Source of the DNA: Bedellia somnulentella
Lineage: Eukaryota > Arthropoda > Insecta > Lepidoptera > Bedelliidae
DNA: 64,000 nt
NCBI GenBank assembly: GCA_963576735.1
Contig: OY755189.1
Coordinates: forward strand, 2,542,001-2,606,000
Direction of reading: 5' to 3'
Positions 2,421 to 28,924 of the stretch are shown piece by piece (position 1 is the first letter of the stretch; every line of letters starts with the position of its first letter). The notes beneath the pieces were generated by a model that was not told where the DNA came from, searched no databases, and saw only the letters and a list, made by a program, of their open reading frames with translations. A program made the position numbers and the translations under genes.

Positions 2421-3034
2421 TTTAAATAATCATGGAAACAGACAGTATAAAGTATGCCACCGCAGCATATGCTTGAAAGTGTCGAACTCTTTCAAAAACC
2501 CTTCACGTGAACCGTACAATGGCTTCCGACCTCCGGTGAAGGAGGCTCTAGCACTCTTGTGAAGATTAGCGAAGGGCTGACTACTTCAAACTTGCATTGT
2601 CATTTTTACTAATACATGGATTTACTGGTAGCTTTCAATTTAAACACACACATGAGTCTTTTAGGTTACATTAGGGTTATCCTCTATGAACTCAAATTCA
2701 AACTTTCACGCCGAATATCTTAATATATTATTACTTAATATATTATTGTTGGCAGAGGTACTAATACTTCTGAACATCACGTGACATTGTCACCTGGTGT
2801 TCAGAGTACCCACGTTTTGCATGGACAGTGTACTCACGTGATAGAGGGCAGGCCTATCACCACTTTGTGAACGGATTTTACAACGTGAAGAGACAATAAA
2901 TCGCCACTTTTCACAGTCCTGACCAATTTTTCTTGCTTCCTTTATACTCATTTATACTCATTGTTTTGCCAAGGAGAAAATCATGATGAAATACTTGTCA
3001 GTCAGCTAGTACTAGTGACAGAGCAAGGAATATG
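2421..3034. repeat. Diverged family B SINE fragment in intergenic sequence
   Basis: About 2690-2905 matches the body of family B (the tRNA-derived SINE best seen at 24823-25190), minus strand: it has the TTTCACGCCG end and the segment around CCCACGTTTTGC. The rest of the interval has no recognisable feature. Confidence 0.5.
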
Positions 3035-3240
3035 ACGACAGCCGTGGCCGTGTAGATAGGTTATACTAGCTACTCGTTCTGGAGGTTGCAGGTTCGATCC
3101 CCGCTGAGAGCAACATTTATGTGATGAGCATTAATGATTGTTTCTTAGTTTTGGGTGTTACTTATGTTTGTATTACTTAGTTTGAGGCTAACTTGATCTG
3201 TGCATAATATGTCCGTGGGAAGAAACGAGGTAGTTTTATT
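3035..3240 (+). mobile_element. Family C tRNA-derived SINE
   Basis: The tRNA-like head has a B box (GGTTCGATCCCCGCTGAGAG), followed by a shared body (GTGATGAGCATTAATGATTG). Other copies or fragments are at 20040-20152, 22790-22975 and 32560-32770. Confidence 0.6.
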
Positions 3241-3383
3241 CTAAGCCGTCACTACTTTGTCAAAATAAAATAAGCAATATGTTGCTTAAATAATTATTGC
3301 TTTTTACAGAACATTATATAAATACCACTTAAACCTGCCAAGTTCTTTTGCGCTAAGAAAGTTACACATACTCGTAAAAAGAT

Positions 3384-3659
3384 AACATACATACATACAT
3401 ATACTCACGGCTATAAATTCCTTAACGGGATAGCCAGAGCTTTGGAATGAGAAATTCCTTAGCCACATTTGGAAGTTAATTGGGGAAAAGATGGTAATAA
3501 TAAATGTTTTTTTTTTAATAACGGTTATAATAAATAGGTGACGGGTCTCCAACCGCATCGCCCAAAAACCACTTAAAAAGCCCCTATACCCTTAGTCGCC
3601 TTTTACGATCACCCACGGGTAGAAAGGGGTAGTGTTATTCTAAGCCGACACTACACGGC
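3384..3659 (-). mobile_element. Family A SINE with short internal duplication
   Basis: The (ATAC)n tail is on the left and the head, ending in CACTACACGG, on the right. About 30 extra bases sit near 3510-3540, where the segment before the GACGGGTCTCCAACC core is partly repeated. Confidence 0.8.
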
Positions 3660-3999
3660 ATTGATTAAGAATAACAAGATAACCTTCAAAAATATTTTTT
3701 TAAATCATAACCTCATAATCTAGGATTACTGGCATGTAACCAAATCCACTTAACATCATTAATGTGCACAAAAGAAGGCTTTGTATTTGTAAGACTTCCA
3801 TTTTTACGACAAAGCCAAATTTAATCAATTCAAACCTTAAAAGTAACATTTTAGAAAAAAAACTTAGAATATATTGGAGCTGTCTTTTCTAATTTCAAAC
3901 TTATAACTAAGCCATTAATTATCTTTGGGGTAGTCAGAGATTATTGATCATCACTTTTTACGATCAGACTTTTACCCTTACGCACATCGTCTTCCCATA

Positions 4000-4146
4000 C
4001 TAACGCTTGATTTCTGAATTGAGTATTCATGCTGAGAACGACTTAATTATCGTTCTGTCGCATTGAAATCTTAACAACTGAATGAGACAAAACGATACTT
4101 ACGTGGTTCTCAGCTTGAATACTCAATTCAGAAATCGGGCGTAACA
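4000..4146. mobile_element. Hairpin MITE, about 147 bp
   Basis: Long imperfect inverted repeats meet with a short spacer. The left arm includes GATTTCTGAATTGAGTATTC and the right arm carries its reverse complement, both followed by a CTGAGAAC stretch. The element has no ORF. The superfamily is not determined. Confidence 0.6.
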
Positions 4147-4511: not shown

Positions 4512-5892
4512 TTTTATTTCAAGAAAATCTAATTTAATCCTAATTGATCTATTAATGCTCGACGCGCGCGCGTGCGTAATCAATAGCTCCGTGAAAAATA
4601 ATTATTTAAAATGGCAAACACCTGGATACTCGCATTTATTTACCTCTTTACATTAATTGCCAGTCTGCTCGTTTAGATGATAGTGTATTCCGTAATAAAA
4701 CCTATGCTGAAGTGTTCTAAAACTTTAAAAACTGTGCCAAAATATTCAGTGCTAAAGAACCAAAACAAAGTGATTAATAAAACTATAAATAGATAATTAA
4801 AGTGCTCCTGTGGAATAAAAATGCAAATTAACTTAAGAGTGATTTCCATTTGTTAAATAACAATATTATTTTGAAAGTGCAACCAATATAAGTGTTTTGC
4901 TTTGTTTTAAATTTTAAAATTAACGGACCAACCAAACCCACGCTACACTTCAACGCTAAGAAACATTGTAGAATCATATACATATTTTCGCCCACAATAT
5001 CAATGTGTCTGTGGACGAGTGGACGAAGCCGCTGCCTAAACTCTCATAGGGCGTGCGTTCAACCCTGACTGGCGGCCTTTTTTATGATACATTTTTATTA
5101 TTAATTTTTTAAATTCCCGGGGACCGGTGAATAAAAATTGGTGTTAAATTTCCGGTGACCTACCGTTCCGAAGCACCTAGCTTACCAAAGTACCTAAACT
5201 TCGAAGCACATACCAAGAATACCAAGACCAGCACCTTTGTAAATAAAATGCATGCAGCTTCGTTGCTTAAAATAAAAATAATATGTATCACAAACTTTAC
5301 TTAGATTGATATATTGCTAAAATGGAAGTTGTTGCCGCTTTCACCCAACAGATGGTACTGCAACAAAACAGCGAAAGACATAACTTTTTATTACTCTCAC
5401 AAAACTACGACGATGACGAATGGACACGAGTTGATGCCAGTATTAATGAAGAGATGGCGCTAAATCAAAGCTGCTGAAACTTTATCACGTGACTCACGCC
5501 TGTCGTCAAACAACTTATTTTTCTTTTTCCTTTTTTTTCTGTCAATTTGAACTAATTTAATTATTTGTTATTGTTATTTTAATTATTTGTAGTTTCTTGT
5601 TTTATTATGCGGTGATGTTGATTTTGGAGATAAATAGCGCTACTAATAAACAAACAGCTCTGGTGGTGGGTGCCTGCTTTGCCTCCCTTACATTTTTGCT
5701 ATTTTGCTGATTACTGTAACATTTGAATTTCATCTAATTCACTTTGCATTAATTTATGATTTATATTTAGCGAATAATTTAACAAAATAATTTAATGTAT
5801 AACTTATTTGTTTTTAATGTGTTTAATTAGTTACTTTAGTTTAATTGCATGTATATCGCGATTGATAGGTATTTATAGTTAAGTGTTTTAAT
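4512..5892. other. Upstream region of the retrotransposon: tRNA-like box and a 51-codon ORF
   Basis: No host gene is supported. At about 5008-5072 there is a possible tRNA-like head (A-box-like GACGAGTGGACG, B-box-like GCGTTCAACCC). At 5322-5477 (+) a 51-codon ORF starts MEVVAAFTQQM and has an acidic stretch (YDDDEW). I do not recognise it; it may be part of the 5' region of the retrotransposon that follows or an unrelated relic. The 5' boundary of that retrotransposon could not be fixed. Confidence 0.4.
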
Positions 5893-8820
5893 TTGTTGTA
5901 TAATTTTCTATTTACAATGGCCCAAACAGATGTGGCTGACCTTGCCTGCTCCCACTGTCCTTCAAGTTGCCTAAAACGCTTTAATAAACACGGCCTCGCC
6001 ATACATTACGGGCGCATGCACAAACCTAAAGCTCCAATTCCGTTAGCTCCCACTGCCTCGCCACAGTCATCACCACCAATCGCAGCTTCAGGGCAGACGC
6101 TGGCACCTGCAGACCTCACCACGGCCACTACCGCTCCACCACCGGCGGCTCTAGACCAGTTGGAGACTCTTGGAGACCGCAGAGCTCACGTACGTGTTCT
6201 TAAACACATTCCTAAGGGCGCTCGCAATCTAGCCGCAGGGAAACTTGCTAGCCTCATCAATAGGTGCTTGGTAAGCAATTCAATTGAGGACTGGTGGGAT
6301 TTCCTTTCCTTTAGTTTCACCTCGCTCCGGGTACCTAAGGACAGAGACGGAACTGCATCTCTCACTAGCAGAGTTAAGCGGAACATAGGCTGTAGGGATA
6401 GTGTTGATGACATACCAGACAGGGGCTCACGGAATCCCACTTCAGTCCATAAGCTGATTGAGGGAAAAGTGTACGACGGGGATCTAAGAGGAGCGGTAAG
6501 ACTACTCTCCTCCGATTGTACCCTGGCACCCTCTGATAATCACACTCTCGAAAGACTGCGTGAGAGGCATCCAGCCCCACTACGCTCTGTACCTAGCTCG
6601 CCCTTCCCCTCAGACTTTGCGCAGCCATTATTAGTTACCAGCTCTGAGGTAGCTGCTGCTGTTGGGTCTTTCCATTCCAGCTCAGCCGCCGGGCTGGATG
6701 GCTTGCGACCACTGCATCTCAAGGAGCTTATTGCTACAACAGCTGGTGACAATGGGCCGCGGCTGCTGGAAGCTCTCACAAAGCTTAGCAATTTTCTCCT
6801 GAGAGGCGAATTAAATTCCGCGGTGTGCCCCTACCTCTACGGTGGTTCGCTCTGCGCCCTTTTGAAAAAGGATGGTGGCATAAGACCAATCGCAGTAGGT
6901 AGTGTTATTCGCCGTCTTGTAGCCAAATTGGGTTGCCAGTCGGTTCGTGATCAGATGGCACCTATTTTACGTCCGCATCAGTTGGGCTTTGGAACCCCTC
7001 TTGGCTGCGAGGCGGCCATTCACGCTACCAGACTATTCGCGATGTCACTTGCGCGCACCGGTGATGTGATCCTTAAAATTGACATTAAAAATGCATTCAA
7101 TAGTATTGAGAGGGACGTGATGCTGGCCGAGGCTAGGGTTAGAGTGCCTACTCTTAGCCCGTTTCTCGAGCAGTGTTACGTCGCTCCCAGTCACCTATTT
7201 TTTGATGGCAATAGAATCGCATCGCGGGTGGGCGCTCAACAGGGGGATCCACTTGGCCCTCTTCTCTTCAGCCTGGCAATCAATGACATTATAAATTCAT
7301 TGGGCGCGCCGCTCAACGTATGGTATCTTGATGACGGTACTCTGGGTGGTGCGCCTGACGTAGTTCTTAGGGATTTGGAGTTATTGATTCCCAGGCTGGA
7401 GGATCTGGGCCTGGTGGTAAATGGTAGTAAGTGCGAACTTTTTCCCTGTAATGACACCGCATCAGAATGCGTACAGGACTTTCGTCGGGTCTTCCCAGAC
7501 ATTAAAATCATCGATCGAGGGTCGTTCGAACTACTTGGAGCCCCTATTTTCGGGGACGCAGTTCCGGTCGCGATTCAAAATAAGGTAAAAATCCTCAAAA
7601 AGGCTGGCCAGCACTTGGATCATTTGTCCAGTCATGTCGCGTTTACCCTCTTTCGAAGTTGCCTAAGTATTCCAAAGTTAATGTTCATGTTGAGGACCTC
7701 TCCAACGTGGCTTTATCCTGACTCTGTTGCTGAAGTAGATGAATACATTAGGGTGGCATTGGAGCGGATCCTCAACGTGAGCATGGATGAGACACAATGG
7801 CTGCAAGCATCGCTGCCAATTCGTCACGGGGGGTTGGGTGTAAGGCGGGTACACGACACAAACTTACCAGCTTTTTTGGCTTCCTCGCATGGGGTGGTTG
7901 AAATCGTCGCTAACATTCTTTGTTTACAGGGTGACGAGCTCAACATCCCATTTGTTGGGGAGGCCAAGGAAGCTTGGTCGTCAGTATGTCCCGCAGTAGA
8001 TCATCCTGAAAAACCCCACATACAAAGGCAGTGGGACGATCCGTGTTGCGAAAAGAGGGTATCGGACATGCTACAGATAGCTACTGGGCCAGATGTTGCT
8101 CGCATAAAAGCTGCAGGCCTACCTGAATCTGGTGCTTGGTTGAAAGCTCTACCTTCACTAGGATTGGGCACCGCCCTGGACGATGAGACTTTAAGGGTGG
8201 CAGTGGCATTGCGGCTCGGAGGCAACGTGTGCGATGCACACCGATGCAGGTGCGGGGCAGCAGTTGATGTTCGTGGGCACCACGGGTTAAGCTGCGCTAA
8301 GTCAGCTGGTCGGTTTCCACGTCATCACATGCTGAATGATGTGCTCCGCCGTGCACTTGTTTCCGCCGGGGTGCCGTGTGTGCTGGAGCCTCCCGGATTG
8401 CTGAGGACAGATGGTAAACGTCCGGATGGACTCACTCTCATTCCGTGGGAGAAGGGACGATGCCTCGTGTGGGACGCCACCTGCGTCAGTACATACGCAG
8501 CATCCCACCTACCCAGAGCCACGAGAGCCCCACGTGCCGCGGCGGAGTGGGCAGCTGCTCAGAAGCACGCGAAGTACCTGGCTCTGAAGGACACGTACTT
8601 GTTCGTACCGTTTGCGGTCGAGGTGAGCGGCGCGTTGTGCGATGAGGCGTGGGAGCTTGTTCGGAGCATTGGACGGCGCTTGAGGGACGTTGGATCAGAT
8701 CCACGCTCCGTGTCTTATCTGGTTCAAAGAATATCGTTGGCCATACAACGTGGCAATGCTGCAAGCGTGCTAGGCACTTTTACACCAGATATGACACGGG
8801 GCGCGTATTGTGACTTGTAA
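5893..8820 (+). CDS. Non-LTR retrotransposon polyprotein (zinc finger, RT, restriction-like endonuclease)
   Basis: A single uninterrupted ORF of 975 codons; the second Met at codon 9 (MAQTD) may be the true start. Domains in order: an N-terminal zinc-finger-like segment (CSHC with HYGRMH, about residues 19-43); a reverse transcriptase whose catalytic box is YLDDG near residue 478, with an upstream GDPLGPLLFS box; a Cys/His knuckle (CRCG ... HHGLSC) near residue 785; and a C-terminal PD-(D/E)xK-type endonuclease (RPDG near 843, followed by LVWDATC). One ORF with a C-terminal restriction-like endonuclease is the architecture of the R2/R4/NeSL/CRE group; I cannot assign the clade. It works by target-primed reverse transcription. 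The frame is fully open and GC-richer than its surroundings, which suggests recent insertion. A polyadenylation-like AATAAAG and a (TTTC)n tail follow at 8927-8957. Confidence 0.88.
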   Translation: MLYNFLFTMAQTDVADLACSHCPSSCLKRFNKHGLAIHYGRMHKPKAPIPLAPTASPQSSPPIAASGQTLAPADLTTATTAPPPAALDQLETLGDRRAHVRVLKHIPKGARNLAAGKLASLINRCLVSNSIEDWWDFLSFSFTSLRVPKDRDGTASLTSRVKRNIGCRDSVDDIPDRGSRNPTSVHKLIEGKVYDGDLRGAVRLLSSDCTLAPSDNHTLERLRERHPAPLRSVPSSPFPSDFAQPLLVTSSEVAAAVGSFHSSSAAGLDGLRPLHLKELIATTAGDNGPRLLEALTKLSNFLLRGELNSAVCPYLYGGSLCALLKKDGGIRPIAVGSVIRRLVAKLGCQSVRDQMAPILRPHQLGFGTPLGCEAAIHATRLFAMSLARTGDVILKIDIKNAFNSIERDVMLAEARVRVPTLSPFLEQCYVAPSHLFFDGNRIASRVGAQQGDPLGPLLFSLAINDIINSLGAPLNVWYLDDGTLGGAPDVVLRDLELLIPRLEDLGLVVNGSKCELFPCNDTASECVQDFRRVFPDIKIIDRGSFELLGAPIFGDAVPVAIQNKVKILKKAGQHLDHLSSHVAFTLFRSCLSIPKLMFMLRTSPTWLYPDSVAEVDEYIRVALERILNVSMDETQWLQASLPIRHGGLGVRRVHDTNLPAFLASSHGVVEIVANILCLQGDELNIPFVGEAKEAWSSVCPAVDHPEKPHIQRQWDDPCCEKRVSDMLQIATGPDVARIKAAGLPESGAWLKALPSLGLGTALDDETLRVAVALRLGGNVCDAHRCRCGAAVDVRGHHGLSCAKSAGRFPRHHMLNDVLRRALVSAGVPCVLEPPGLLRTDGKRPDGLTLIPWEKGRCLVWDATCVSTYAASHLPRATRAPRAAAEWAAAQKHAKYLALKDTYLFVPFAVEVSGALCDEAWELVRSIGRRLRDVGSDPRSVSYLVQRISLAIQRGNAASVLGTFTPDMTRGAYCDL

Positions 8821-14130: not shown

Positions 14131-14378
14131 ACATACATACATATACTCACGGCTATAAATCCCTTAACGGGGTAGCCAGAGCTTGGGAATGAGAAATTCC
14201 TCAGCCACTTTTGGAAGTTGATTGGGGAAAAGATGGTAATAATAAATGATTTTGGTGACGGGTCTCCAACCACATCGCCCAAAAATCACTTAAAAAGCCC
14301 CTATACCCTTAGTCGCCTCTTACGATCACCCATGGCTAGAAATGGGGTAGTGTTATTCTAAGCCGACACTACACAGCA
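14131..14378 (-). mobile_element. Family A SINE
   Basis: Complete minus-strand copy of the CCCTTAACGGGG / CCACATCGCCC subtype that recurs at 39506, 40960 and 51526. Confidence 0.85.
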
Positions 14379-14637
14379 AGTACTTCTACAAGACACTACT
14401 TCACTTGTTATATCAATCTATAAATTATCTATTATAACCATAACGAACCAGGCTCGCGGCGGCTTATCGATTAATTTGGACGCTTTGTTTAGAATATCTC
14501 CTTCCTACATTTAATCATGTTTTGGTTTGATAACTATGTGAGTTATCCTTATCCGAAATTCGTTACAGATGATGTATATGTTATGAAAAAATGTATCTCT
14601 AGTTAACTACATGGAATTATCATAGATCAAAGTTGAG

Positions 14638-14645
14638 TATATATA
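14638..14645 (+). promoter_or_regulatory. TATA box of the Cys/Gly-rich gene
   Basis: TATATATA stands about 31 bp upstream of an initiator-like TCACAGT (A at 14671) and 65 bp upstream of the ATG at 14703. Spacing and order fit a TATA-dependent, tissue-specific insect promoter. The transcription start is inferred from sequence only. Confidence 0.55.
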
Positions 14646-14702
14646 CTCTGATAATCTGTAGGTTTATGTCACAGTACTTTGAAGTCAGAGACAGGCTCCA
14701 AC

Positions 14703-17700
14703 ATGGGTTGTAACAAAGCCTTTATATTTTTAGGTAAGTTTTGGTTTTATTATATTTATCTAGTTTTTGTTTACATCGTCCACTATGGAAACCTAAAGTA
14801 GGACTATACTGCCTTTCATTTTCATGCAAAACCCGTGCAAGTTTATTAAATAGGGGTGGAAAGTTAGTATGGGATTTTTTTAATTTTAAAAGATGAAACT
14901 TTATATTTTAACACTTGATAATAAATAAAAAAAAACAATGCGTTCCTGCGTTTTTGAAATTTTGACCTGTGAGAGGATGAAATAGGCGTTGAAAGTTTGA
15001 AGTTCATAATTTGTTTGCATTAAGGCACTAAATAAGAACCGAAAAGACCGTTGTTCTAGCATTTTGAATTTTTACCAGTATGGTGGTGAAATAGGGGTTG
15101 AAAATATAGGCTAAGAACCTCATTATACTTTCTCAGTTTGATCTAGGTACGACATTTTTAACTTATTAATTATTTTGAAAATTACAATATTTTAGATGAG
15201 CATTCCATAGGTAATGTTGTTTAGTTTGATGTCTTTTATCAATTTAAAATATGAAAAGGGTATGTTTTAAAACGAGGTCTAGGCCAATTAAATGTTGTTA
15301 TTAATGACTTTTGGGCCGATATACTACTAAATATTTAAATTGCTGGCAGACATAATGCTGTTTTTCCCGTAATGTATCGATAGTATGATTATGGTTTCCT
15401 AGGGTGTACCTACCTTATACACTAAACATGTATTTTTCGTATTTTTTTTGCTTAATATATAAATAATAAACAAATAAATAAAAAGATTTTATTTGCCTTT
15501 TTACACATATTACAAAAAGAAATCTATATCATACAGTTAAAAGAAGTAAAAAAAGAAGAACAAATTAGATAACAATAAAAAAAAAAAACACAAAATGGTT
15601 ACGAGCTCGGTCTAACCACTTAAAGCGGATAGCTCCGGTTTTCAGCTCTAACCAATACTTATAACTAAATAAAACTTAAAGACTAACTTATAGAACTAAA
15701 CACACAAAATAACATACACACGTACAAATATACATATTCTTAGCTAATAGCTAATGTACAATATGTGAGTATTTTTGGGTACATGCGCCTTATACATAAA
15801 AAGATAACATTTACATATAAAATATTCTAAACATATACAATACATACATATACAAACATAGAATATATATATATATATATACATACATACAGATATAGAA
15901 TATTTATATACACATATAAGTACAATACACACAAATATTCTAAATATTTACATATGAAAATTATAGGTATGAAGTATGTTAACAATAAAAACAAATAATA
16001 CTCTTTTGCGTCTTAATGGATAATATGAATACTTACACACATGTGCACATATATAGTTATAGCACATATGACATACATTAATATTAACTTGTATATTGCC
16101 TTTAAAAATAATAAAGTATATATTAAAGGGTAGCTCCTATACAATAAACTTTATTTTTTTAAGCAATTTTTACTGCATCTTAATAAACGTTTAGTAATAT
16201 AGATGAGAGTACACAACTCTTGGTGCGCGAGCCGACTCGCACTTGGCCGGTTTTTTATTTTCTTAGATGACAGAATCTTGCGAGACAATAAAGAGTGAAT
16301 TATTTTTACGCCGATTACACTGATGCCGTGTAGTGCCGACTTAGAATGTCACTACAACTTTCTACCCACGGGTGTCGTAAGAGGCAACTAAGGGATTTTG
16401 GGTGATGCAGTTGGAGACCAATCCCCTGCTATACTTTATTTGTACCATCTTGCGCCTATCAAGGTCCAATTTTGGCTGAGGAGTTTTTTGCTCAGAAACT
16501 CTGGCTACCCCTGTTTAGGATTTATGGCCGTAAGTGTATGTATTAAACTAGATTTTCATTTGTTTCAGTTTTCGTATCATCATCAATAGCTGCACCTTTG
16601 TTTCCACCGGGCGTCGTGCCCTGTGTGCCACCTTACCTTTGTCCTAGACCCTACCCAAGTCCTTGTCCAATCCCTTGGCCGTGTCAGCAGTCTTGTCTAG
16701 CCCCATGTCCCGGATCTCTGCAACTTCCTATTGGGTGTAGCAGCAGTTGCGGAGGTGGATGCGGTGGTGGTTGCGGCAATGGATGTGGAGGTTCCTCTGG
16801 TTTCATACCTAGTTGCGTTGGTTGCGGGTGTGGAAGCAGTTGTCTAGGCGGATGTGGGAGCGGTTGTCTAGGCGCATGCAGTTCCGGAAGCGGATGTGGA
16901 GGTGGATGCGGTTGTATTGGTGGATGTGGAAACGGTTGTCAAGGTGGATGCGGAAATGGATGCGGTTGTATTAGCGGAGGTGGGAACGGTTGTCAAGGTG
17001 GATGCGGAAATGGATGCGGTTGTATTGGCGGAGGTGGATGCGGTTTAATTGGTGGTTGCCAAGGTGGAAGCGGATGCGGTTGTGGAGGCGGTTGTGGAGG
17101 CAGTTGTCTAGGTGGATGCAATTCTGTAAGTGGATGTAGTTGTATTGGCGGATGTAGAGGCGGATGCGGTTGCATTGGCAGATGTGGAAGCTGTTGTCAA
17201 GGCGGATGTGTAGGCGGATGCAGTTGTCAAGGGGGATGTGGTTGTATTGGCGGATGTGGAAGCTGCTGTCAAGGTGGATGTGGAGGCGGATGTGGAGGCA
17301 GTTGTCTAGGCGGATGTGGAAGCAATTGTCTAGGCGGATGCAGTTCCGGAAGTGGATGTAGTTGTATTGGCGGATGTGGAGGTGGATGTGGAGGTGGATG
17401 TGGTTGTATTGGCAGATGTGGATGTGGTTGTATTGGCGGATGTGGAAGCTGCTGTCAAGGTGGATCTGGAGGCGGATGCAGTTGTCAAGGCGGATGTGGA
17501 GGCGGATGCGGTTGTCAAGGTGGATGTGGTTGTATTGGCGGATGTGGAAGCTGCTATCAAGGTGGATGTGGAAGTAGTTGTCTAGGTGGATGTGGAAGCT
17601 GCTGTCAAGGTGGATGTGGAGGCGGATGCGGTTGTCAAGGTGGATGTGGATATGGATGTGGAAGCGGATGCAGTTGTGTTTCCACAGGTGGATGCAATTG

Positions 17701-20673
17701 TCTAGGCGATTGTGGTAGCACTTGTATTGGTGGATGTGGAGGCGGATGTGGAAGCGGATGCTGTGGTCAAGGTGAGAATGACATGAGAATGGTAGACCTA
17801 TTAGTTGTAAAACATTAGAAGACTAAAGAATTTGGCTACCCCTTTTTGAGATTCATAGCCGTGAGTAAATGTATGTATGTATTTTGAATGTTTTTGTTCA
17901 TGAAAACCTCATTTGGGGATTATTACTAATAAATAAATACATACATACATACATACATATACTCACGGCTATAAATCCCTAAAAGGGGTAGCCAGAGCTG
18001 AGAAATTAGAAATTTTAATAAATAAAGAATAAATAAAGGAAAGAAAAATTATGACACAGGCGGGAATCGAACCCGCGACCTCGGGTATACGCCCCCGTTG
18101 CTCTGCCAATTGAGCTACCGTGTCAATCAATGCAAGCCTATGTCGAAATTTTTCTTTCCTTTATTTATTCTTTATTTATGTATGTATATCTTATTAAGTA
18201 AATTACAAAACTCACAGTGTAAAATCGTGTTAGAAGTTAATTCTTTTAGTACGAAAATGTTTCAGATTATTCCTTTATTTAAATTTAACCTAAAAGTTAG
18301 ATATAATCAGTATTTGCCGTGTAGTCTCGGTTTAGAATGTCTTTACCCCTTTCTATCCACGGGTTTCGCAAGAGGCGACTAAAGGTATGGGGCTTTTTTT
18401 AGTTATTGTTGGGCGATTGGAGACCCATCAGCAACAACTTTTATATTAATATCTTTTCCCACACTCAACTTCCAAAAGTGGCTGATGAATTTTATTTCGA
18501 CGCTCTGGCTACCCCTTTTAGGGATTTATAGCCGTGAGTATATGTATTTAAGTATATAATCAAAGACATAAAACGGGATTCATTTATTTTTGCAAAAAGA
18601 TAGATATGCGCAGATCTGCTATAGGTAAATATCATTAGACCTAAAAACTTTAACCATTAAAAAAAGCTAGTAATACAGACAGACCCAATACACAAAAAGA
18701 CAGATACTCGGTTATATATGAAAGTAGTAATAAGTTATTTAAACAAATTACCTTTAAAATAAAGTAAGAGTGATGTGTGAGGTACCATTGCATTTAAATA
18801 AGAGTATTTATTTTTGTATGAAGGTTGTGGCGGAAGCTGCGGAGGTTGCAGTAGTTGCTGTGACAGCGCGAACTGCTATGGAGGCTGTGCAGGTGGATGT
18901 AGCGGTAGCTGCGGCGGACGTAAGTGTTTCCAATTAAAGAAATAATGAAATTTATATACGGTCATTTTAAACAAAGACCAGATTAGCCCTAAATTAAGTC
19001 AAATTTGTGTTATGTACTATACTAATACTGACTCAACGATATATGTAATACTAGTGGATCGTCCCAGCTTCGCACGGGTAGCGTTGTTTTTTTTAAATAT
19101 TTGAGGTTTCTTTCTTCAGTCACTGCTCAAGCATTGTGAAATTCAGCGCAATGTTTTCAATTTATTAAATTTATAGCACTCCCTAAACAGTGTACTTTGG
19201 TGATTTTAAATGCGCTTTGATGAACGGTTCAGTATTTCCGTTTAATAGCATTTTTTTAAATAAAACGCTATGAAGTATTTATAACAATCTAAAAAATAAA
19301 TCATTACGTGATTTAGGATGCAACTACTCGCGCCATCTAGTATGATATATGTAAATTAGTAAAGATTTGGTTTTGATCACGGGCGCGATGGCTTATTTTA
19401 TGTATAATTTCGGTGTTTGTCTACCGATTTGTATGATTCTTTTTTTATTGAATAGGTAATAATGTTACCTTTTTTAAATTTGGGATGAGTGCGACGTTTA
19501 CGAACGTAAGAGTTAACAAATATAATCAGAATGATGAATGAGTTATTGTGAGTCAACCGTAAAAGATAGACATAAACTGCTGAGGTTTTTTTTTAGATAA
19601 TTTTATGAAGAATATTTCCGTCACACATGATTTCTATGTAAGTTTAACCATTGAGGCTGCACACGCGACGGAAGCTTAAAAAATGGAGTAACTTTTCCCG
19701 TTTTCCCAAAATTTCCCGAAATTCCCCTTTACTACTCTGCTGGAAAGTATACAAAAACCTGCGCAAGTGTATGAAGAATATTTTTACCAAGTTTCGTTAA
19801 AATCCGTCGAGTGGTTTTTGTTTCCATAAGGAACATACAAACCGACAGACAGACAGACAAAAATTTTACTGATTGCATTTTTGGCATCAGTATCGATCCC
19901 TAATCACCACCTGATAGTTATTTTGAAAATATATTTCATGTACAGAATTGACCTCTCTACAGATTTATTATAAGTATATATTATATAATATACATTTAAA
20001 TAACATTCCATACTAAAAAACAATCATTTATTCTCATCACATAAATGTTGCTGAGGTTGCGGGTCCTCCTCGGTCCGGAGGTTCGGGTATGGAACCCGCA
20101 ACCTCGGGACCGAGAAACTTGTTACCTATTTACGCGACCACGGACTTCGTCAAAGAAAATCAGTACAATACTAATAAAATACATACATACATCCATACAT
20201 ATACTCACGGCTATAATTCCCTAGAAGGGGTAGCCAGAGCTAAGGAATTATAAATTCCTCAGCCACGTTTGGAAGTTGAGTGGGGAAAAGATCGTAAAAT
20301 AAAGGTTTTTGGTGATAGGTCTCCAACCGCATCGCCGAAAAATCCAATAAAAAGCCCCAATACCCTTTTATTTTTTATTTTTATTTTATTTTTATTAGGA
20401 ACATCAACAGCGACATAAGTAATAATACACAGTTAATAATAGAAATCAAGTAAGGCCAATGACAGATGTTCACAGGTGTACAGAAAACATATCTAACAAT
20501 AATCTTGTTTTTACGTTACATTTGATTTTCAACACATGTTTTTTTTATAGCAAGTAACTCAAATACATACAATTTTAAGAGGAAATAAAATAGATATTAA
20601 TAACAATATTTAAAGCAAAATTGTTTTGATCCACGATATCTCAGGGGTGTGTGTATGTGCATGTGTGTGTGTA

Positions 20674-20713
<40 letters not shown>

Positions 20714-23700
20714 TGTGTGTGTGTAAAACAAATAAAAATCTGTGACATACATAAAGGCATATAAGAATGTATGTGTTATTAAATTATACTCATAATATAA
20801 TATGTATATTAAGAATTAAAAAGTACGTCCATTACAGCTTTTCTGAATGCGCATCTACTTAGATTAAAAAGATCTAAGTCATGGAAGTTTTTATTATATT
20901 CGGATAAAATACGACTAAACGGAGCGTTCTGTGAGTAGTTAGTTCTGGAAATTGGTACGGAGAACAAACTATTTATGGTATGGCGAGTCCTATATGATGG
21001 CGTGTTAAGTCCAACCTGTGCAAGTAAGTTTGGGTTATCCAAACGACCATGAATTATATCATGTAGAACGGTTAGGTCAGTTAAAATACGGCGATCCTCT
21101 AATCTTAACATTTTATGAAATTTACAACTCATTTCGTAACACTTATGGAAGTTTTTAGTTTTAAAATTTAAGTGTCGTACAAAAATATGTTGTATTCTTT
21201 CAATCATATGCTTGTACTTAATGTACTGAGGGGACCAAACACTTGAGGCGAACTCCAGAATACTGCGAACATAGGCATAATAAACCGTCTGTATACATTT
21301 AGGGTCTTTAAACGTTTCACAAGTCCTCATTACAAAGCCCAGATTTTTGTATGCACGATTAGTGATATCAACAATGTGTTGTTCAAAAGTAAGCTTTGAA
21401 TCTAAAGTAACGCCGAGGTCTTTTACTGCATTAACTCTCCGGATAGGCTGTTTATTAATATAGTAAGTATTAATGATGGGTTTATTACTTCGTGAAAAAG
21501 TAATTTGCACGCATTTTGACACATTTATGTCTATTCTGTTCTCGTTATAGTAATCGGTGAGGCGATCCAAATCCCTTTGTAGCTTATAACAGTCGTCGGC
21601 TTGTCGTATACCACAATAAACCTTTTTGTCATCTGCATACATTATAAAATTGGTCTCACATATGGCTGTAAAAATATCGTACAAATAAATATTATATAAA
21701 AGGGGACCCAAATGGGATCCTTGGGGTACTCCTGATGGTATGTCAACAAAACCTGATCGAAAACCACCCAAAACAACAGCTTGATGACGGTTAGATATAT
21801 AAGATTTTATCCATCTAAAGAAACCCTTAGTCGCTTCTTACGACACCCGTGGGTAGAAAGGGATAGCGGCATTCTAAGCCGGCACTACACGGCACTAATA
21901 AAATAAAATATTTGTTATCCATCCATGTATTATAAAAAAATACAGTCATACAATTTTAACACATCAACATGCGGGATAAAATTAAGTTGGTTTATTTTGT
22001 TTAAAGATTATAAATTGTCTTTATAATTGTGTATTTTAAACTTTTGAAATAACAAGTAAAAGTCACACCAAAATATTCCAAGGGACTACATACTTACAAC
22101 TTACAAGTTTCCGTTTTTATTTATAGGAAGCATGCGATGGTTTCAATATCCAACCAGCTGTGGAGGAAGCAGTTGCTGTAACAATATAAACAGTTGTGGA
22201 GGTGGTTGCAGTGGCGGATGTGGATCACAAGGGTGCGGATGTGGATGTGGAAATGGTTGTAGCTGCAGCAATTGCGGCAGTGGCAGTGAGTTTTTAAAAT
22301 AAATCAGAAGCACTTATAGAGTCATTAATTATAAATAATAAATAAATAAATATATAGACATATTATACATAAACATAAACGTTCACGCCGTTTATCCCCG
22401 AAGGGGTTGGCAGAGGTACCAATACTCCTGAACTCACATGGCAAGCGCCATCTAGTTTCCAGAGAAGGTACCCACGTTTTGCTTAGACAGTGTACTCGCG
22501 TGATAGGGGGCAGGCCTATCGCCGTTTTGTACGAATACACTGTCACATGACTAAGTACAACTCAGCCATGTGGGTTTCCTCACGATGTTTTCCCTCACCG
22601 TTAGCAACCATGATAAATTAACCACACATATGACTTTAGAAAAGACAAATTGGTGTAGGCCCGTCCCAGGATTGGAACTCACGCCCTTCTGTTTTCGGAC
22701 GGGTGTCCTACCCACTGGACTATCATGTCGCATATATATATATATTATACACAGATCAAGTTAGTCCCAAACAAAGTAAGACTTGTATTATTGGATACTA
22801 AGTCGATGATGTATTTAATATTATATAATACACATATAAATCACATCCAAGACTAAGAAACATCATATTAGCTCATCACACAGATGTTGCCCTCAGCGGG
22901 GATCGAACCTGCAACCTGCGGACCGAGAGGTAGTCACCTAACCACTCGACCACGGATTCCGTCCTCGTCCATTGATTCATTATTTACAGCATAGAAAAAC
23001 TAGTGGTCATTATTAGAGAAATAACTCTTATAGATTGGAAATAAATCAACATAACAAAAACAAATTAAAAGAAAAATAGGTTACAGCTCATTTTAGACTA
23101 CTTTAGCGACATTAGGAAACCAATAACAATCAGTCCGTATTTAATAGTAAGACCTTTAAGTTAGTATAAGCATTAAAAGTATAAAATTTTACAGGATATG
23201 TGCGGTGGCTCCGTTTCAGTAATGGAGGCTGTGGAGGTTGCAGTAGCAGTTGTAATAATGGAAACGGTTGTGGTGGAGGATGTAATGGATGCAATTGTAT
23301 AGGCAGTAATGGGTATAGTTGTGGAGGTGGATGTAATGGATGTAGCTGTATAGGTGGATGTAATGGATGTGGTTGTGGAGGTGGATGTGGAGGTGGATGT
23401 AGTGGATGCAGTTGTGGAGGTGGATGTAATGGATGCAGCTGTGTAGGTGGATGTAATGGATGTGGTTATGGAGGTGGATGTAGTGGATGCAGTTGTGGAG
23501 GTGGATGTAGTGGATGCAGCTGTGTAGGTGGATGTAATGGATGTGGTTGTGGAGGTGGATGTAATGGATGCAGTTGTGGAGGCGGATGTGGAAGTAGTTG
23601 TCTAGGCGGGTATGGGAGCGTTTGTCTAGGCGGATGCAATTCCGGAAGCGGATGTAGTTGTATTGGTGGATGTGGAGGTGGATGCGGTTGTAATGCTGGT

Positions 23701-25425
23701 GGTGGATGTAATGGATGCAGTTGTATAGGCAGTAATGTATGTAATTGTGGAGGTGGATGTAATGGATGGGGTTGTGGAGGTGGATGTGGAAGCTGTTGTC
23801 TAGGCGGATGTGGGAGCAGTTGTGTAGGCGGATGCAATTACGGAAGCGGATGTAGTTGTCTTGGTGGATGTACAGGTGGATGTAATGGATGCAGTTGTGG
23901 TGGTGGATGTAATGGATGTGGTTGTGGAGGCGGGTGTAATGGATGCAGTTGTGGAGGTGGATGTAATGGATGTGGTTGTGGAGGTGGATGTAATGGATGC
24001 AGTTGTATAGGCAGTAATGGGTGTAGTTGCGGAGGTGGATGTAATGGATGCAGTTGTGGAAGTGGATGTGGAAGTACTTGTCTAGGCGGATGTGGAAGCT
24101 GTTGTCTAGGTGGATGCAATTCCGGAAGTGGATGTGGAAGTGGATGTAGTTGCATTGGTGGATGTGGAGGTGGATGTAGTTGTATAGGTGGATGTGCAGG
24201 TGGATGTAATGGGTGCAGTTGTGGAGGTGGATGCAATGGATGCTGTTGTATTGGCAGTAATGGGTGTAATTGTGGAGGTGGATGTAATGGATGTAGTTGT
24301 ATTGGCAGTAATGGGTGTAATTGTGGAGGTGGATGTAATGGATGTAGTTGTGGAGGGGGATGTGGATGTGGTTGTACAGGCGGCAGTGGATGTGGTTGTA
24401 TAGGCGGTTGTCAAGGCGGATGTGGAGGCGGATGCGGATGTGGTTGTAATGGCAGTAAGTTTTATCAATTATATACATATACTCGCATATATACATATAC
24501 TCACACTCATACCCTTCAGAATAACTAAGTACTCAGCCAGTTTTGGAAGTTGAATGAATTTCTGCTCACCAACCCGAAATAAAAAAAACCCGTATGAAAA
24601 ATTTATCGTTTGAAATAACCGGCGGTTCCAAAACCTAAATACCAATCAATTCAGATCTGCGGACTAGGGTGAATTACTGATCCCTTACTATATATTACAT
24701 TACATGTACTCACGGCTACAAATACCGAGAAGGGGTAACCATAGCTAAGGATTTAGAAATTCCTTAGCCACTTTTGGAAGTTGCGTGGGGAAAAGTTGTC
24801 AAAAAATGGTTGTTGGTGATGGATGGACGACATGATAGTCCAATGGGTAGAACACCCGCCCCTAAACAGACAGGCTTAAGTTCAAATCCCTGGTCGGGCC
24901 TACACCAATTTGTCTTTTCTAAAGTTATATGTCCGGTTAATTAATCATGGTTGTTAACGGTGAGGGAAAACATCGTGAGAAAACCCACAGTACACCCGAG
25001 TTGTACTTAGCCATGTGACAGTGTATTCGTACAAAACACTGAGCGTACACTGTCTAAGCAAAACACAAGTGAGTACACTGTCTAAGCAAAACGTGGGTAC
25101 CTACTGTGGACACTAGGTGGCGCTGCATAAGTATTGGTACCTCTGCCAATCCATTCGGGGATAAACGGCGTGAACGTTTATGTTATGTTATGGTGATGGG
25201 TCACCAACCGCTTCACCCAAAATCCCTTATAAAGCCCCAATACCCTTAGTCGTCTCTTACGTACACCCACGGGGAGATTTGGGGTAGTGCTATTCTAAAT
25301 GTACACGTTTTTTTACAGATTGCATGCAGATGATTGGCACTGGCAGTTCTGGTTGCGTATTAGTGACTGATGGAAGTGGCTACCCACGCTCCTTATGCTG
25401 CTGCGTTCCATGCCAAGCGCTTTAA
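14703..25425 (+). CDS. Secreted Cys/Gly-rich repeat protein, six exons, about 951 residues
   Basis: Exons by splice signals and frame: 14703-14733, 16569-17771, 18824-18919, 22127-22285, 23195-24454, 25319-25425 (stop TAA). All five introns are phase 1, and every junction has GT donors (GTAAGT, GTGAGA, GTAAGT, GTGAGT, GTAAGT) and AG acceptors. The joined length is an exact multiple of three. Exon 1 plus the start of exon 2 make a classic signal peptide ([10 protein letters not shown], then VFVSSSIAA), so the protein is secreted. A Pro/Cys-rich neck ([18 protein letters not shown]) leads into long G-G-C arrays. Exon 2 uses CQGGC, CLGGC and CIGGC units; exon 5 uses GGGCNGCSC units. Cysteine is about 30 % in sampled segments. 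The last exon is non-repetitive and ends CCCVPCQAL. Composition recalls high-cysteine chorion proteins or keratin-associated proteins, suggesting a disulphide-linked extracellular matrix such as eggshell or cuticle. However, the chorion central domain and two-exon layout are absent, so the function is unknown. Confidence 0.82.
15482..15665 (-). repeat. LINE 3' tail fragment in intron 1
   Basis: Minus-strand AT-rich tail containing AATAAA-like signals and the segment around GAGCTCGGTCTAACCACTTA, typical of truncated LINE 3' ends. The family is not identified. Downstream, 15710-16100 is CA/TA-rich simple sequence, including a (TA)n run near 15867-15880. Confidence 0.4.
16325..16543 (+). mobile_element. 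Family A SINE just upstream of exon 2
   Basis: Plus-strand copy ending GGCCGTAAGTGTATGTATT, only 25 bp from the exon 2 acceptor at 16568. The intron polypyrimidine tract lies right after its tail. Confidence 0.8.
17833..17882 (+). mobile_element. Family A SINE, 3' fragment
   Basis: Only the last 50 bp (GGCTACCCC to (TATG)n) are present, shortly after the exon 2 donor. Confidence 0.65.
17939..18013 (-). mobile_element. Family A SINE, 3' fragment
   Basis: The (ATAC)n tail and first 50 bp of the minus-strand family A end; truncated at the inverted-repeat structure that follows. Confidence 0.65.
18018..18179. repeat. 33-bp perfect inverted repeat enclosing a tRNA-like sequence
   Basis: Arms 18018-18050 and 18147-18179 are exact reverse complements (ATAAATAAAGAATAAATAAA, then GGAAAGAAAAATT). 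The 96-bp centre carries the tRNA-like sequence. Neither arm looks like a poly(A) tail of a family seen elsewhere in the window. The structure sits in intron 2 of the Cys/Gly-rich gene. Confidence 0.8.
18054..18125 (-). ncRNA. tRNA-like sequence (probably a pseudo-tRNA or SINE head)
   Basis: On the minus strand, a 7-bp acceptor stem (GACACGG with CTGTGTC), a D arm (GCTC/GAGC) and a T arm (GCGGG TTCGATT CCCGC) all form. The anticodon arm does not close normally: only four pairs form, around an eight-base loop, and U33 is missing. Decoding function is therefore doubtful. Confidence 0.55.
18316..18548 (+). mobile_element. Family A SINE in intron 2
   Basis: Plus-strand diverged copy from GCCGTGTAGTCTCGG to GCCGTGAGTATATGTAT. 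Confidence 0.8.
19051..19980 (-). mobile_element. Helitron-like element, second subfamily
   Basis: Starts CTAGTGGATCGTCCC, preceded by A, and ends near TAAGTATA, so on the minus strand it runs from a TC-like end to CTAG. It is highly similar over its whole length to 49201-50182. It contains a short (GACA)n tract and no ORF. Confidence 0.7.
20040..20152 (-). repeat. Family C SINE head fragment
   Basis: Contains the minus-strand tRNA-like head (GGAACCCGCAACCTCGGGAC and GCGACCACGGACTTCG) next to a short inverted duplication of the same box. Confidence 0.5.
20368..21822 (-). mobile_element. Jockey/CR1-like LINE, 5' truncated, with RT C-terminal ORF
   Basis: The minus-strand ORF 20809-21771 (320 codons, ending in TAA) covers the reverse transcriptase from the [18 protein letters not shown] box through the catalytic FIMYADD to a C-terminal tail. 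The N-terminal part and endonuclease are missing, as expected for 5' truncation. The 3' end at the left is an A-rich tail (TTTTA units on the plus strand), and a (GT)n tract is included. Clade call is by motif style only. Confidence 0.8.
20648..20724. repeat. (GT)n microsatellite
   Basis: About 75 bp of GT dinucleotides with a few interruptions, inside the 3' UTR of the inserted LINE. Confidence 0.9.
22370..22735 (-). mobile_element. Family B tRNA-derived SINE
   Basis: Nearly complete minus-strand copy. The right end is the tRNA-like head (B box inside CCCAGGATTGGAACTCACGC, A-box region CCACTGGACTATCATG). The body contains CCCACGTTTTGC, and the left end is AACGTTCACGCCG. A (TA)n tract follows the head. 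Confidence 0.8.
22790..22975 (-). mobile_element. Family C tRNA-derived SINE
   Basis: The tRNA-like head on the minus strand reads through AGCGGGGATCGAACCTGCAA and CTAACCACTCGACCACGG. The body matches the copy at 3035-3240. Confidence 0.65.
24701..25299 (-). mobile_element. Family A SINE in intron 5, split by a family B SINE
   Basis: Halves 24701-24822 and 25191-25299 flank an inserted family B SINE. The duplicated target TGGTGATGG is at 24814-24822 and 25191-25199. The head is truncated 19 bp before the exon 6 acceptor. Confidence 0.85.
24823..25190 (+). mobile_element. Family B tRNA-derived SINE, complete, with 9-bp TSD
   Basis: Best copy of the family. The head has an A box around GATAGTCCAATGGGTAGAAC and a B box AAGTTCAAATCCC, then TTTGTCTTTTCTAAAG and a long body. 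The 3' end reads GGCGTGAACGTTTATG followed by TTATG units. Confidence 0.85.
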
Positions 25426-26029: not shown

Positions 26030-27716
26030 CTTTCTACCCACGGGTGTCGTAAGAGTGGACTAAGGGTATGGGGCTTTTTTAAGAGGATTTTGGGCGATGC
26101 GTTTGGAGACCCAGCAGCAAAAACATTTATAATACAATCTTTTCCCCGCTTAACTTCCAAAAATGGCTGAAGAATTTTTAGATTCTGAAACTCAGGCTAC
26201 CCCTTTTAGGAATTTATTGCTCTGAGTATATGTACGAGGGGCATGCCAATAGAAGTTAGATACTCTTTTCTCATTTAATTGACATTGCTGGTTTTTTATT
26301 GACATATTTGACTGAAAATCTGTGTTGTGCATTCTACACCTTTTCACAATTGTTAAATTTATAATTTTCTTTATCACTTGTAGTTTATGTCTTTTTTTTA
26401 AATTTTTATGTTTAAGTAAACTTTATAAGTACCATTTAGTAATTCAAATGTGAATAAATGTCTCTTCTCTCTTTCTTTCTTAAAAAATATAAAACACACT
26501 TCTTTTATTTATTTTTTATTTGAATGAGCATCATTTTTCCGAGAATCTGGCGGGGATTCACTTGCAACAATGGAGCTCAGTCGACGTGATTTTCGCGCTA
26601 TGATTTATTATGATATTAAAAAGGTTTAAAGCCTCAAGAATGTTTTGAACTTTTGGCTTCTACTTTTGGTGAGTCTGCTTGTTCCCGAGCAACAGTATTC
26701 AATTGGTTTGCTGAATTTAAAAGAGGACGGGGATGTCTCGAAGATGAAGCAAAGACAGGACGGCCGCCAACCGCGGTCACGTAAGAAAACGTTCGTGCAG
26801 TCGAAAAATTTATTCACGAAAACCGACGAATTACATATGTAGAGCTAGAGCAAGAACTAGGAATTGGATCAGCAGCAATGCAAACCATAATTCATGACCA
26901 CTTTTCTCTCCGTAAACGTTGTTTGAGATGGGTGCCGCACAAACTTACCGATGAGCAGCACAACCGTCGTCGGGTGGAATGGTGCCTATTCATGATAGAT
27001 AAATTCAACGGGGGCGAGAAAAAAAACGTAATAAGATATACTGACTGGTGACGAAACATGGCTATATAACTATGATGCGACAGCGACAGATGAAGTGACA
27101 GTCGACTGTATGGTGCTTTGAAGACGAGCCAACTCCAACTAAATGACGCTGTGCACGAAGCACACAGAAACAAATGGTCGCCTCGTTTTTCTGCAAAACG
27201 GGTCATATTGCTACTGTTGTGCTAGAGAATGAAAGAACGGTGAACTCCGAATGGTATGTGACAGTTTGTGCTCTAACAGTAATATCAGCTTGGTGTGACA
27301 AGCGACCGAAGTCAGGAATCCGGCACCTTCTCTAGCACCACGACAATGCGGCGCCGCACACGTCTGCCAGAACACAGACTTTTTCAACTCGAAAAATGTG
27401 TCAATTCTCCCTCACCCGCAATATTCCCTTGACTTAGCACCTTGTGATTTTTACTTGTTTCCAAAAATCAATGAAAAACTAAAGGGGAAGAGGTTTGAAA
27501 GCAAAGAAGATGCACTGGTTGCCTATAATTTCGAGATTTCTGAGGTACCTAAAGAAGAGTGGTCACTGGTATTTTCCAATTGGTTCAGACGTGTGGAAAA
27601 GTGTACACGTGCTCAGGGTGAATACTTTGAAAAGATTGATACTTGTAATGCAGGATAAATTTTATAATTTTCGTGTATCTAGTTTCTTTTGACATGCCCC
27701 TCGTATGTATGTATTT
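26030..27716 (+). mobile_element. Family A SINE split by mariner in its tail
   Basis: SINE body 26030-26234; its (TATG)n tail continues after the mariner from 27704. The insertion site is a TA within the tail. Confidence 0.8.
26235..27703 (+). mobile_element. Mariner element with 30-bp TIRs, decayed transposase
   Basis: The termini are inverted repeats (CGAGGGGCATG and its complement CATGCCCCTCG; the match extends about 30 bp with a few differences). TA is duplicated at 26233-26234 and 27704-27705. Length 1469 bp. Translation in shifting frames shows the mariner landmarks: N-terminal HTH-like segment, TGDETWLYNYD (first Asp), HHDNAAPHTS (second Asp) and LDLAPCDFYLFP (third Asp). Several frameshifts and stops break the ORF, so it is a fossil. 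Confidence 0.88.
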
Positions 27717-28369: not shown

Positions 28370-28924
28370 TATGAGATACTATAATGCATGAATGTCTTAT
28401 TTATATTTAAAACAGTGATTGCTTGGATTTCTAAGGGGCCGCAATGATAGGTTTTCATACATTCTATTAACACTTTTTGGAGCCAATATTCAAATTAAAG
28501 CAAAAGTTGTCATTTTATAAATACGAAACAAATGAAAAAAAAAATACCCTGATTTTATGTCCTATTGGTCGATTTGATACAACATCTACAAGATCTAAAA
28601 CTGAAGAAATGGTAAACTAATAAAAATTACCAATTATGGTGGTTCCTCATTTAAACAAAGTTAACATCATTAACATAAACATGGCATAACATAAACTGAC
28701 ATACCTGGATATCAATGATTACTTTGAAGAGTGTTATCCGAGTAGAAGTTAACCTGCGTTATTAATCTGTGAAGCTATTGATGTTAATGTTAAATACAGA
28801 CCAATCAATATTGACATTGACATTTGAATTTGGCATTGGCTCTTCTGTCTGACCAATGTTATTGTTTTTAAATTTCTAACGGGCATTAAAATTTATTTGA
28901 ACCTAAATAGTACTAAGTTTATTG

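Follow-up and report, generated by a model that had tools for sequence, protein, structure and literature searches.

The HcA and HcB chorion proteins of Bombyx mori, which carry Gly-rich arms, are among the described systems closest to the gene reported here, and TCACGT is a chorion promoter hexamer. In the accounts cited here, moth chorion is hardened by disulphides and not by tanning (PMC3011924; PMC13409908), and it is laid down largely reduced, the disulphides forming later (PMC3011924). Chorion genes are described as consisting of two exons, a minor first one of about 50 nt and a major second one of 300-500 nt, and most of the A and B genes as clustered, tightly paired and divergently transcribed (PMC4639761). 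The same source describes a late high-Cys class, whose HcA and HcB proteins penetrate and cross-link the chorion (PMC4639761). For silkmoth chorion proteins, Cys contents of up to about 30% are given (PMC3068167). Within a 64-kb stretch of DNA from the moth Bedellia somnulentella (the whole stretch analysed, hereafter the window), we examined a probable gene whose product resembles HcA and HcB of Bombyx mori in its predicted secretion, very high Cys content, short first coding exon and richness in Gly. Unlike them, it is 951 residues long, is encoded by six exons, has neither a recognisable chorion domain nor a partner gene in the window, and contains Ser, Asn, Ile, Leu and Gln within its Cys/Gly repeats.

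Several other Cys-rich systems invite comparison. CREMP of the avian eggshell membrane is likewise long, repetitive and Cys-rich, and is an extracellular protein of an egg covering; its modules follow C-X4-C-X5-C-X8-C-X6, whereas the Cys spacings here are mainly 4, 2 and 3 (X3, X1 and X2). Ultra-high-sulphur keratin-associated proteins also consist of Gly/Cys/Ser-rich repeats, yet they are intracellular hair proteins without a signal peptide, encoded by intronless genes, in contrast to the signal-peptide-like N terminus and six exons found here. The disulphide-rich silk proteins of Chironomus are likewise large, Cys-rich, secreted structural proteins of an insect, but contain about 16% Cys compared with 26.1% here and are not dominated by Gly to such a degree. 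Metallothioneins have a family domain and spacing dominated by C-x-C; the present chain matches no Pfam family and its dominant spacing is 4. Of the four features of secreted disulphide-linked structural proteins, a signal peptide, very high Cys and repetitiveness are present by sequence; the fourth, disulphide cross-linking, is proposed here.

Gene model and splice sites

The six exons, all on the forward strand, splice into 2856 nt, that is 951 codons and a TAA stop, in exact agreement with the coordinates and length given in the preliminary description. Exon 1 (14703..14733; 31 nt) provides the start codon, in the context CAACATGG, and the first half of the signal peptide, and ends at a GTAAGT donor. 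Exon 2 (16569..17771; 1203 nt) supplies the remainder of the signal peptide, a Pro/Cys-rich head and Cys/Gly repeats. A short Cys/Gly exon 3 (18824..18919; 96 nt), possibly related to exons 4 and 5, is followed by exon 4 (22127..22285; 159 nt), which by sequence is homologous to the start of exon 5 (23195..24454; 1260 nt), an expanded and repeat-bearing version of it. Exon 6 (25319..25425; 107 nt) encodes a non-repetitive tail of 35 residues and the TAA stop. Recomputation returned GT-AG borders and phase 1 for five of five introns, as had been claimed, and the proposal of a spliced gene with a signal peptide split by intron 1 and a non-repetitive last exon is supported.

Upstream, a TATA box, TATATATAC, lies at 14638..14646 on the forward strand (TATATA at 14638 and at 14640), and an initiator-like TCACAGT at 14669..14675 on the same strand begins 31 bases after the start of the TATA box, which would probably place the transcription start near 14671. 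The positions of the TATA box, the initiator and the start context suit the proposed gene. The first AATAAA, 517 bases past the stop codon, counts against it.

Splice sites were scored with approximate matrices, not fitted to the host species. On this approximate scale the donors of exons 1 to 5 rank 8, 4, 67, 86 and 104 among 3809 GT dinucleotides of the forward strand, and the acceptors of exons 2 to 6 rank 208, 516, 31, 1293 and 103 among 3536 AG dinucleotides. The acceptor at 23195 is thus weak, and two neighbours score above it: 23220, which would be in phase 2, and 23228, which scores slightly higher, is in phase 1 and in frame, and would shorten exon 5 by 11 codons. We favour 23195 over 23228 because the proteins of exons 4 and 5 appear homologous from the first codon onwards.

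The preliminary description had treated the uniform phase as an argument for the gene. The pattern itself stands, and phase-1 introns are reported to be overabundant around signal-peptide cleavage sites (PMC1626468). Its evidential weight is lower than claimed, since every one of the 28 GT sites listed in the end regions of exons 2 to 5, the donors included, is in phase 1. The phase is partly forced, because the codons GGT, TGT and AGT place GT at codon positions 2 and 3; donors so forced oblige the matching acceptors to be in phase 1 too, and the five phases are therefore not independent. Exons 2 to 5 are each phase 1-1 and divisible by three in length, so that duplication or skipping of any of them preserves the frame. 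Taken as a whole, this is probably a real, apparently intact nuclear gene for a large secreted structural protein.

Composition of the chain and its proposed role

The whole chain contains 38.5% Gly, 26.1% Cys (248 of 951 residues), 11.9% Ser and 5.6% Asn. Cys reaches at most 29% in any exon, and the figure of roughly 30% put forward in the preliminary description was somewhat too high. The N terminus is signal-peptide-like as predicted by hydropathy: the most hydrophobic 12-mers start at residues 6 and 7, and their value of 2.42 is the maximum of the chain. With cleavage assumed after residue 18, the mature chain of about 933 residues contains 247 Cys, 365 Gly, 12 Tyr, 10 Arg and 3 Asp; Lys, His and Glu are entirely missing from it, as are N-glycosylation sites.

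The cysteines are far from randomly placed. Among the 247 neighbouring pairs, a spacing of 4 occurs 107 times (about 26 in shuffles), followed by 2 (55), 3 (34), 6 (21), 1 (13, compared with 64 in shuffles) and 5 (5), while spacings of 7 and 9 never occur. Most Cys residues of exon 2 share one parity; over residues 61-411 the share is 87%, against a maximum of 65% in 2000 shuffles. In exon 5 it is 62.5%, a value matched by 3 of 2000 shuffles. Such one-sided parity would fit extended strands with Cys on one face.

We propose, with a probability of about 65%, that this is a real gene for a secreted structural protein that becomes locked by disulphides into an insoluble extracellular coat. The chain would be secreted reduced or partly reduced and would pack as extended Gly/Cys strands, which inter- and intrachain disulphides would then lock into the coat. 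Since the chain offers neither Lys nor His, quinone tanning, lysine-derived cross-linking and Lys-Gln bonding could not draw these residues from it, and with Glu and N-glycosylation sites missing as well, the disulphide is the only abundant cross-link option; dityrosine has some scope through the 12 Tyr. The disulphide-hardened matrix role suggested in the preliminary description is strengthened by this composition and stays a proposal.

As to where such a coat would be made, the eggshell appears to be the single likeliest site, at somewhat less than even odds, and nothing within the window links the gene to the ovary. Other hardened secretions, such as silk or cocoon, egg glue or a cuticle structure, take up most of the remaining probability. 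A product of the silk gland, the accessory gland or the cuticle, hardened by the same disulphides and differing from our preferred reading in its place alone, is accordingly quite conceivable, and precedents are described in Chironomus silk and barnacle cement, with about 16% and 18% Cys, respectively (PMC3068167). Two observations speak indirectly against it. No cuticle or silk Pfam domain was detected in the protein, and intron 1 lies in phase 1 after codon 10, whereas the intron peak reported for those Drosophila signal-peptide genes that are mostly cuticle genes is in phase 0 at position 5 (PMC1626468).

We consider it unlikely that the gene is a diverged, late high-cysteine member of the lepidopteran chorion superfamily, without its former central domain and with enlarged Cys/Gly arms. 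Intron 1 does split the signal peptide after a very short coding exon, chorion genes too have a short first exon (PMC4639761), and the Cys content falls within the same range (PMC3068167). Yet a Pfam scan of the full protein up to E 1, a range in which matches above about 0.1 are mostly filtered out, gave no family; exons 2 and 5 matched none at E up to 0.01, and the scan detected no chorion central domain. The likeness to chorion and keratin-associated proteins is thus one of composition only, as the preliminary description had held. The two-exon design of chorion genes is present as far as the 31-nt first coding exon, but there are six exons here, the second of them 1203 nt long. On neither strand of the 64 kb does another stretch reach 5 Cys and 5 Gly per 20 codons, the threshold used for Cys/Gly coding sequence, and hence the window holds no divergent partner gene; none was found among the upstream open reading frames of at least 45 aa either. 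The hexamer TCACGT is absent from 14201-14703. By sequence, the gene does not appear to be a chorion-family member, although by analogy its product probably acts like the late high-cysteine chorion proteins.

Searches for relatives gave little. Against the protein database, the N-terminal 75 residues drew 7 candidates, all of them above E 1, and tail residues 905-951 drew 12 candidates and no match, while the whole protein had none at E up to 0.01 among the best 7992 candidates by common words. We regard this absence from the searched database as weak evidence of novelty. Neither PDB sequences searched with exon 2 nor NCBIfam searched with exons 2, 5 and 6 yielded a convincing relative. Among viral contigs, 17 pattern matches to exon 5 and 57 to the first 82 residues of the exon 2 translation gave no confirmed case. 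Among the open-licence papers listed, we saw no moth protein of such design, although one may have been published.

Among prokaryote contigs, 68 pattern matches to exon 2 left one locus, in Candidatus Termititenax (L001; E 1e-7, 31% identity). Its protein scored 786 against exon 2, compared with at most 601 in 200 full shuffles; when the Cys positions were kept and the other residues shuffled, the score was reached in 5 of 300 trials for exon 2 and in 229 of 300 for exon 5. The likeness is mostly common C-x3-C spacing, and we set this protein aside as a relative and read it as convergence. The protein is itself unusual: encoded at 643-2562 of L001 of Candidatus Termititenax persephonae, it has 639 residues, 122 Cys and no Pfam family, and 100 of its 121 Cys steps are of 4 residues (C-x3-C). 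It is accompanied by a radical-SAM-like protein (2855-4057; PF04055 at E 1.3e-4, below the cut-off), which follows an open reading frame of 99 aa, and the pair looks like a giant Cys-rich modified-peptide system.

Openness and constraint of the reading frame

Only one of the six frames, the proposed one, runs through exon 2 and exon 5 alike without a stop; the other five contain 5-16 stops in exon 2 and 1-45 in exon 5. This openness is not trivial to keep, with 497 of the 951 codons one change away from a stop. In 300 simulations of random divergence, exon 2 stayed open in 25%, 4.7% and 0% of cases at 2%, 5% and 10% divergence, and exon 5 in 21%, 1.7% and 0.3%, respectively. Since openness often survives 2% divergence, a very recent loss of the gene would still be compatible with it. 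Where two repeat windows of 72 bases are identical at 78% or more of their positions, the offset between them is a multiple of three; this holds for 26 of 26 cases in exon 2 and for 69 of 69 in exon 5.

Ka/Ks was estimated among the repeat copies by the Nei-Gojobori method at five window settings, and no significance is given because the repeat pairs are not independent. Within exons, the proposed frame gave 0.36-0.46 (exon 2) and 0.28-0.35 (exon 5), compared with 0.53-1.63 in the other two forward frames. One minus frame was equally low (0.24-0.72), because it has its wobble position in common with the proposed frame; it is excluded by its 16 stops in exon 2 and 3 in exon 5 alone. Stops number 12, 16 and 5 in the three minus frames of exon 2, and 5, 3 and 1 in those of exon 5. 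Long frames on the opposite strand (438 and 283 aa) were considered as candidates and rejected; the frame to which both belong has Ka/Ks of 1.22-1.61 (exon 2) and 0.55-0.78 (exon 5). When copies in exon 2 were compared with copies in exon 5, the proposed frame gave 0.33-0.67; at the strictest setting (90% identity), with six windows each, it gave 0.67 compared with 0.43 for another forward frame.

Mismatches at codon positions 1, 2 and 3 were 0.239, 0.135 and 0.239 in exon 2, and 0.196, 0.141 and 0.237 in exon 5. Second positions are thus the best conserved, while variation at first positions about equals that at third positions in exon 2 and comes close to it in exon 5, which suggests that Gly, Cys and Ser interchange easily. 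The reading frame, as judged from its repeat copies, bears signs of purifying constraint.

These results bear on whether there is a functional protein at all. Cys/Gly minisatellites that fit a gene model by chance, or a very recent pseudogene, would be in keeping with the low-complexity DNA, the TE-bearing introns, the lack of any homologue found, and the roughly one quarter (exon 2) and one fifth (exon 5) of simulations that stay open at 2% divergence. Against such readings stand the open frame, the Ka/Ks values, the in-frame repeat offsets, the homology of exons 4 and 5 and the promoter geometry, and we regard them as improbable. A secreted metal-binding, metallothionein-like protein is more improbable still: the 248 Cys and the 55 C-x-C among 247 neighbouring pairs, slightly above the 48 in shuffles, agree with it, but the dominance of spacing 4 (107 of 247), the 38.5% Gly, the signal peptide and the lack of a Pfam match do not.

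Surroundings and growth of the gene

Reverse-transcriptase frames lie in the introns and flanks of the gene, among them one in intron 3 (20809..21837, minus strand; RVT_1, E 4.4e-13). A tRNA-like element in intron 2 (18051..18125, minus strand; ARAGORN, Rfam RF00005) is likely the head of a SINE. Elsewhere in the window, a non-LTR retrotransposon-type frame of 983 aa spans 5869-8820 (RVT_1, E 2e-17); its start looks zinc-finger-like by eye, and its GC content of about 50% is much above that of most of the window. A possible Tc1/mariner-like transposase remnant lies at 26785-27658 (HTH_Tnp_Tc3_2, E 0.015, below the cut-off).

A gene for a metalloprotease of ADAMTS type occupies part of the minus strand downstream; some of its pieces match PF25379 and PF17771 above the cut-off, with PF01421 just below and PF01562 below it. 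HAUS-augmin3 matches weakly at 28907 (E 0.0058, below the cut-off), a hint of an augmin subunit gene between the Cys/Gly gene and the ADAMTS-type gene. Two tandem exon arrays were seen in the ADAMTS-type region, both on the minus strand. In the first region (51823-52653), five copies of 148 bases, 97% alike over the array, come after an ADAMTS-type cysteine-rich exon that ends at 52569; each copy has an in-frame stop at the identical place (KWAL*NGTSC), and the donor GTCAG|GTAAGT is intact in four of them. By sequence the array is like a set of homogenised decoy exons. The second (45590-46113) comprises a unit of 160 bases in about 2.6 copies (96% matches) and one of 110 bases in two, and encodes a 30-residue sequence or variants of it.

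Returning to the Cys/Gly gene, the exon 4 and exon 5 proteins align from their first codon (R-x-x-R-W; z 5.8, a score reached in none of 1000 shuffles). Their DNA matches from about 30 bases in, with a score of 50 where 300 codon shuffles reach 35 at most, and their donor contexts, TGGCA|GTGAGTTTT and TGGCA|GTAAGTTTT, have the common form TGGCA|GT(A/G)AGTTTT. By sequence, the two exons are homologous. Exon 3 is possibly akin to both: its protein score was reached by 47 of 1000 shuffles against exon 5 and by 86 of 1000 against exon 4, and a short DNA match to exon 5 scored 36 compared with a maximum of 34 in 300 codon shuffles. A module like CLGGCGSxCLGGCxSGSGC occurs in five copies, at residues 102 and 256 (exon 2) and 632, 698 and 792 (exon 5). 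Moreover, exons 2 and 5 have in common a 60-nt stretch of 95% identity, compared with at most 90% in 60 synonymous shuffles, which points to a recent common origin of the two exons or to later sequence exchange. Transfer between high-cysteine chorion gene families has reportedly occurred, and an exchange between exons 2 and 5, if real, would resemble it.

The gene probably grew by duplication of a phase 1-1 exon, giving exons 4 and 5, followed by expansion inside exon 5, with exons 2 and 5 related by shared descent or sequence exchange. We tentatively suggest, as a possibility that we do not favour outright, a disulphide-only structural protein that arose outside the chorion superfamily by phase 1-1 exon duplication and internal expansion, and whose giant exons, 5.4 kb apart across TE-bearing introns, still exchange sequence; this would be a second, independent route to a high-cysteine coat.

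If expressed, the protein would be a long natural chain in which cysteine is the sole plentiful cross-linking residue, and thus a clean case of disulphide hardening in which neither tanning nor lysine bonds take part. Its eggshell-type composition would moreover have evolved with no chorion domain, through the duplication of an exon and expansion within it. The exact junctions and the non-repetitive head and tail offer handles for finding orthologues that composition-masked searches miss.
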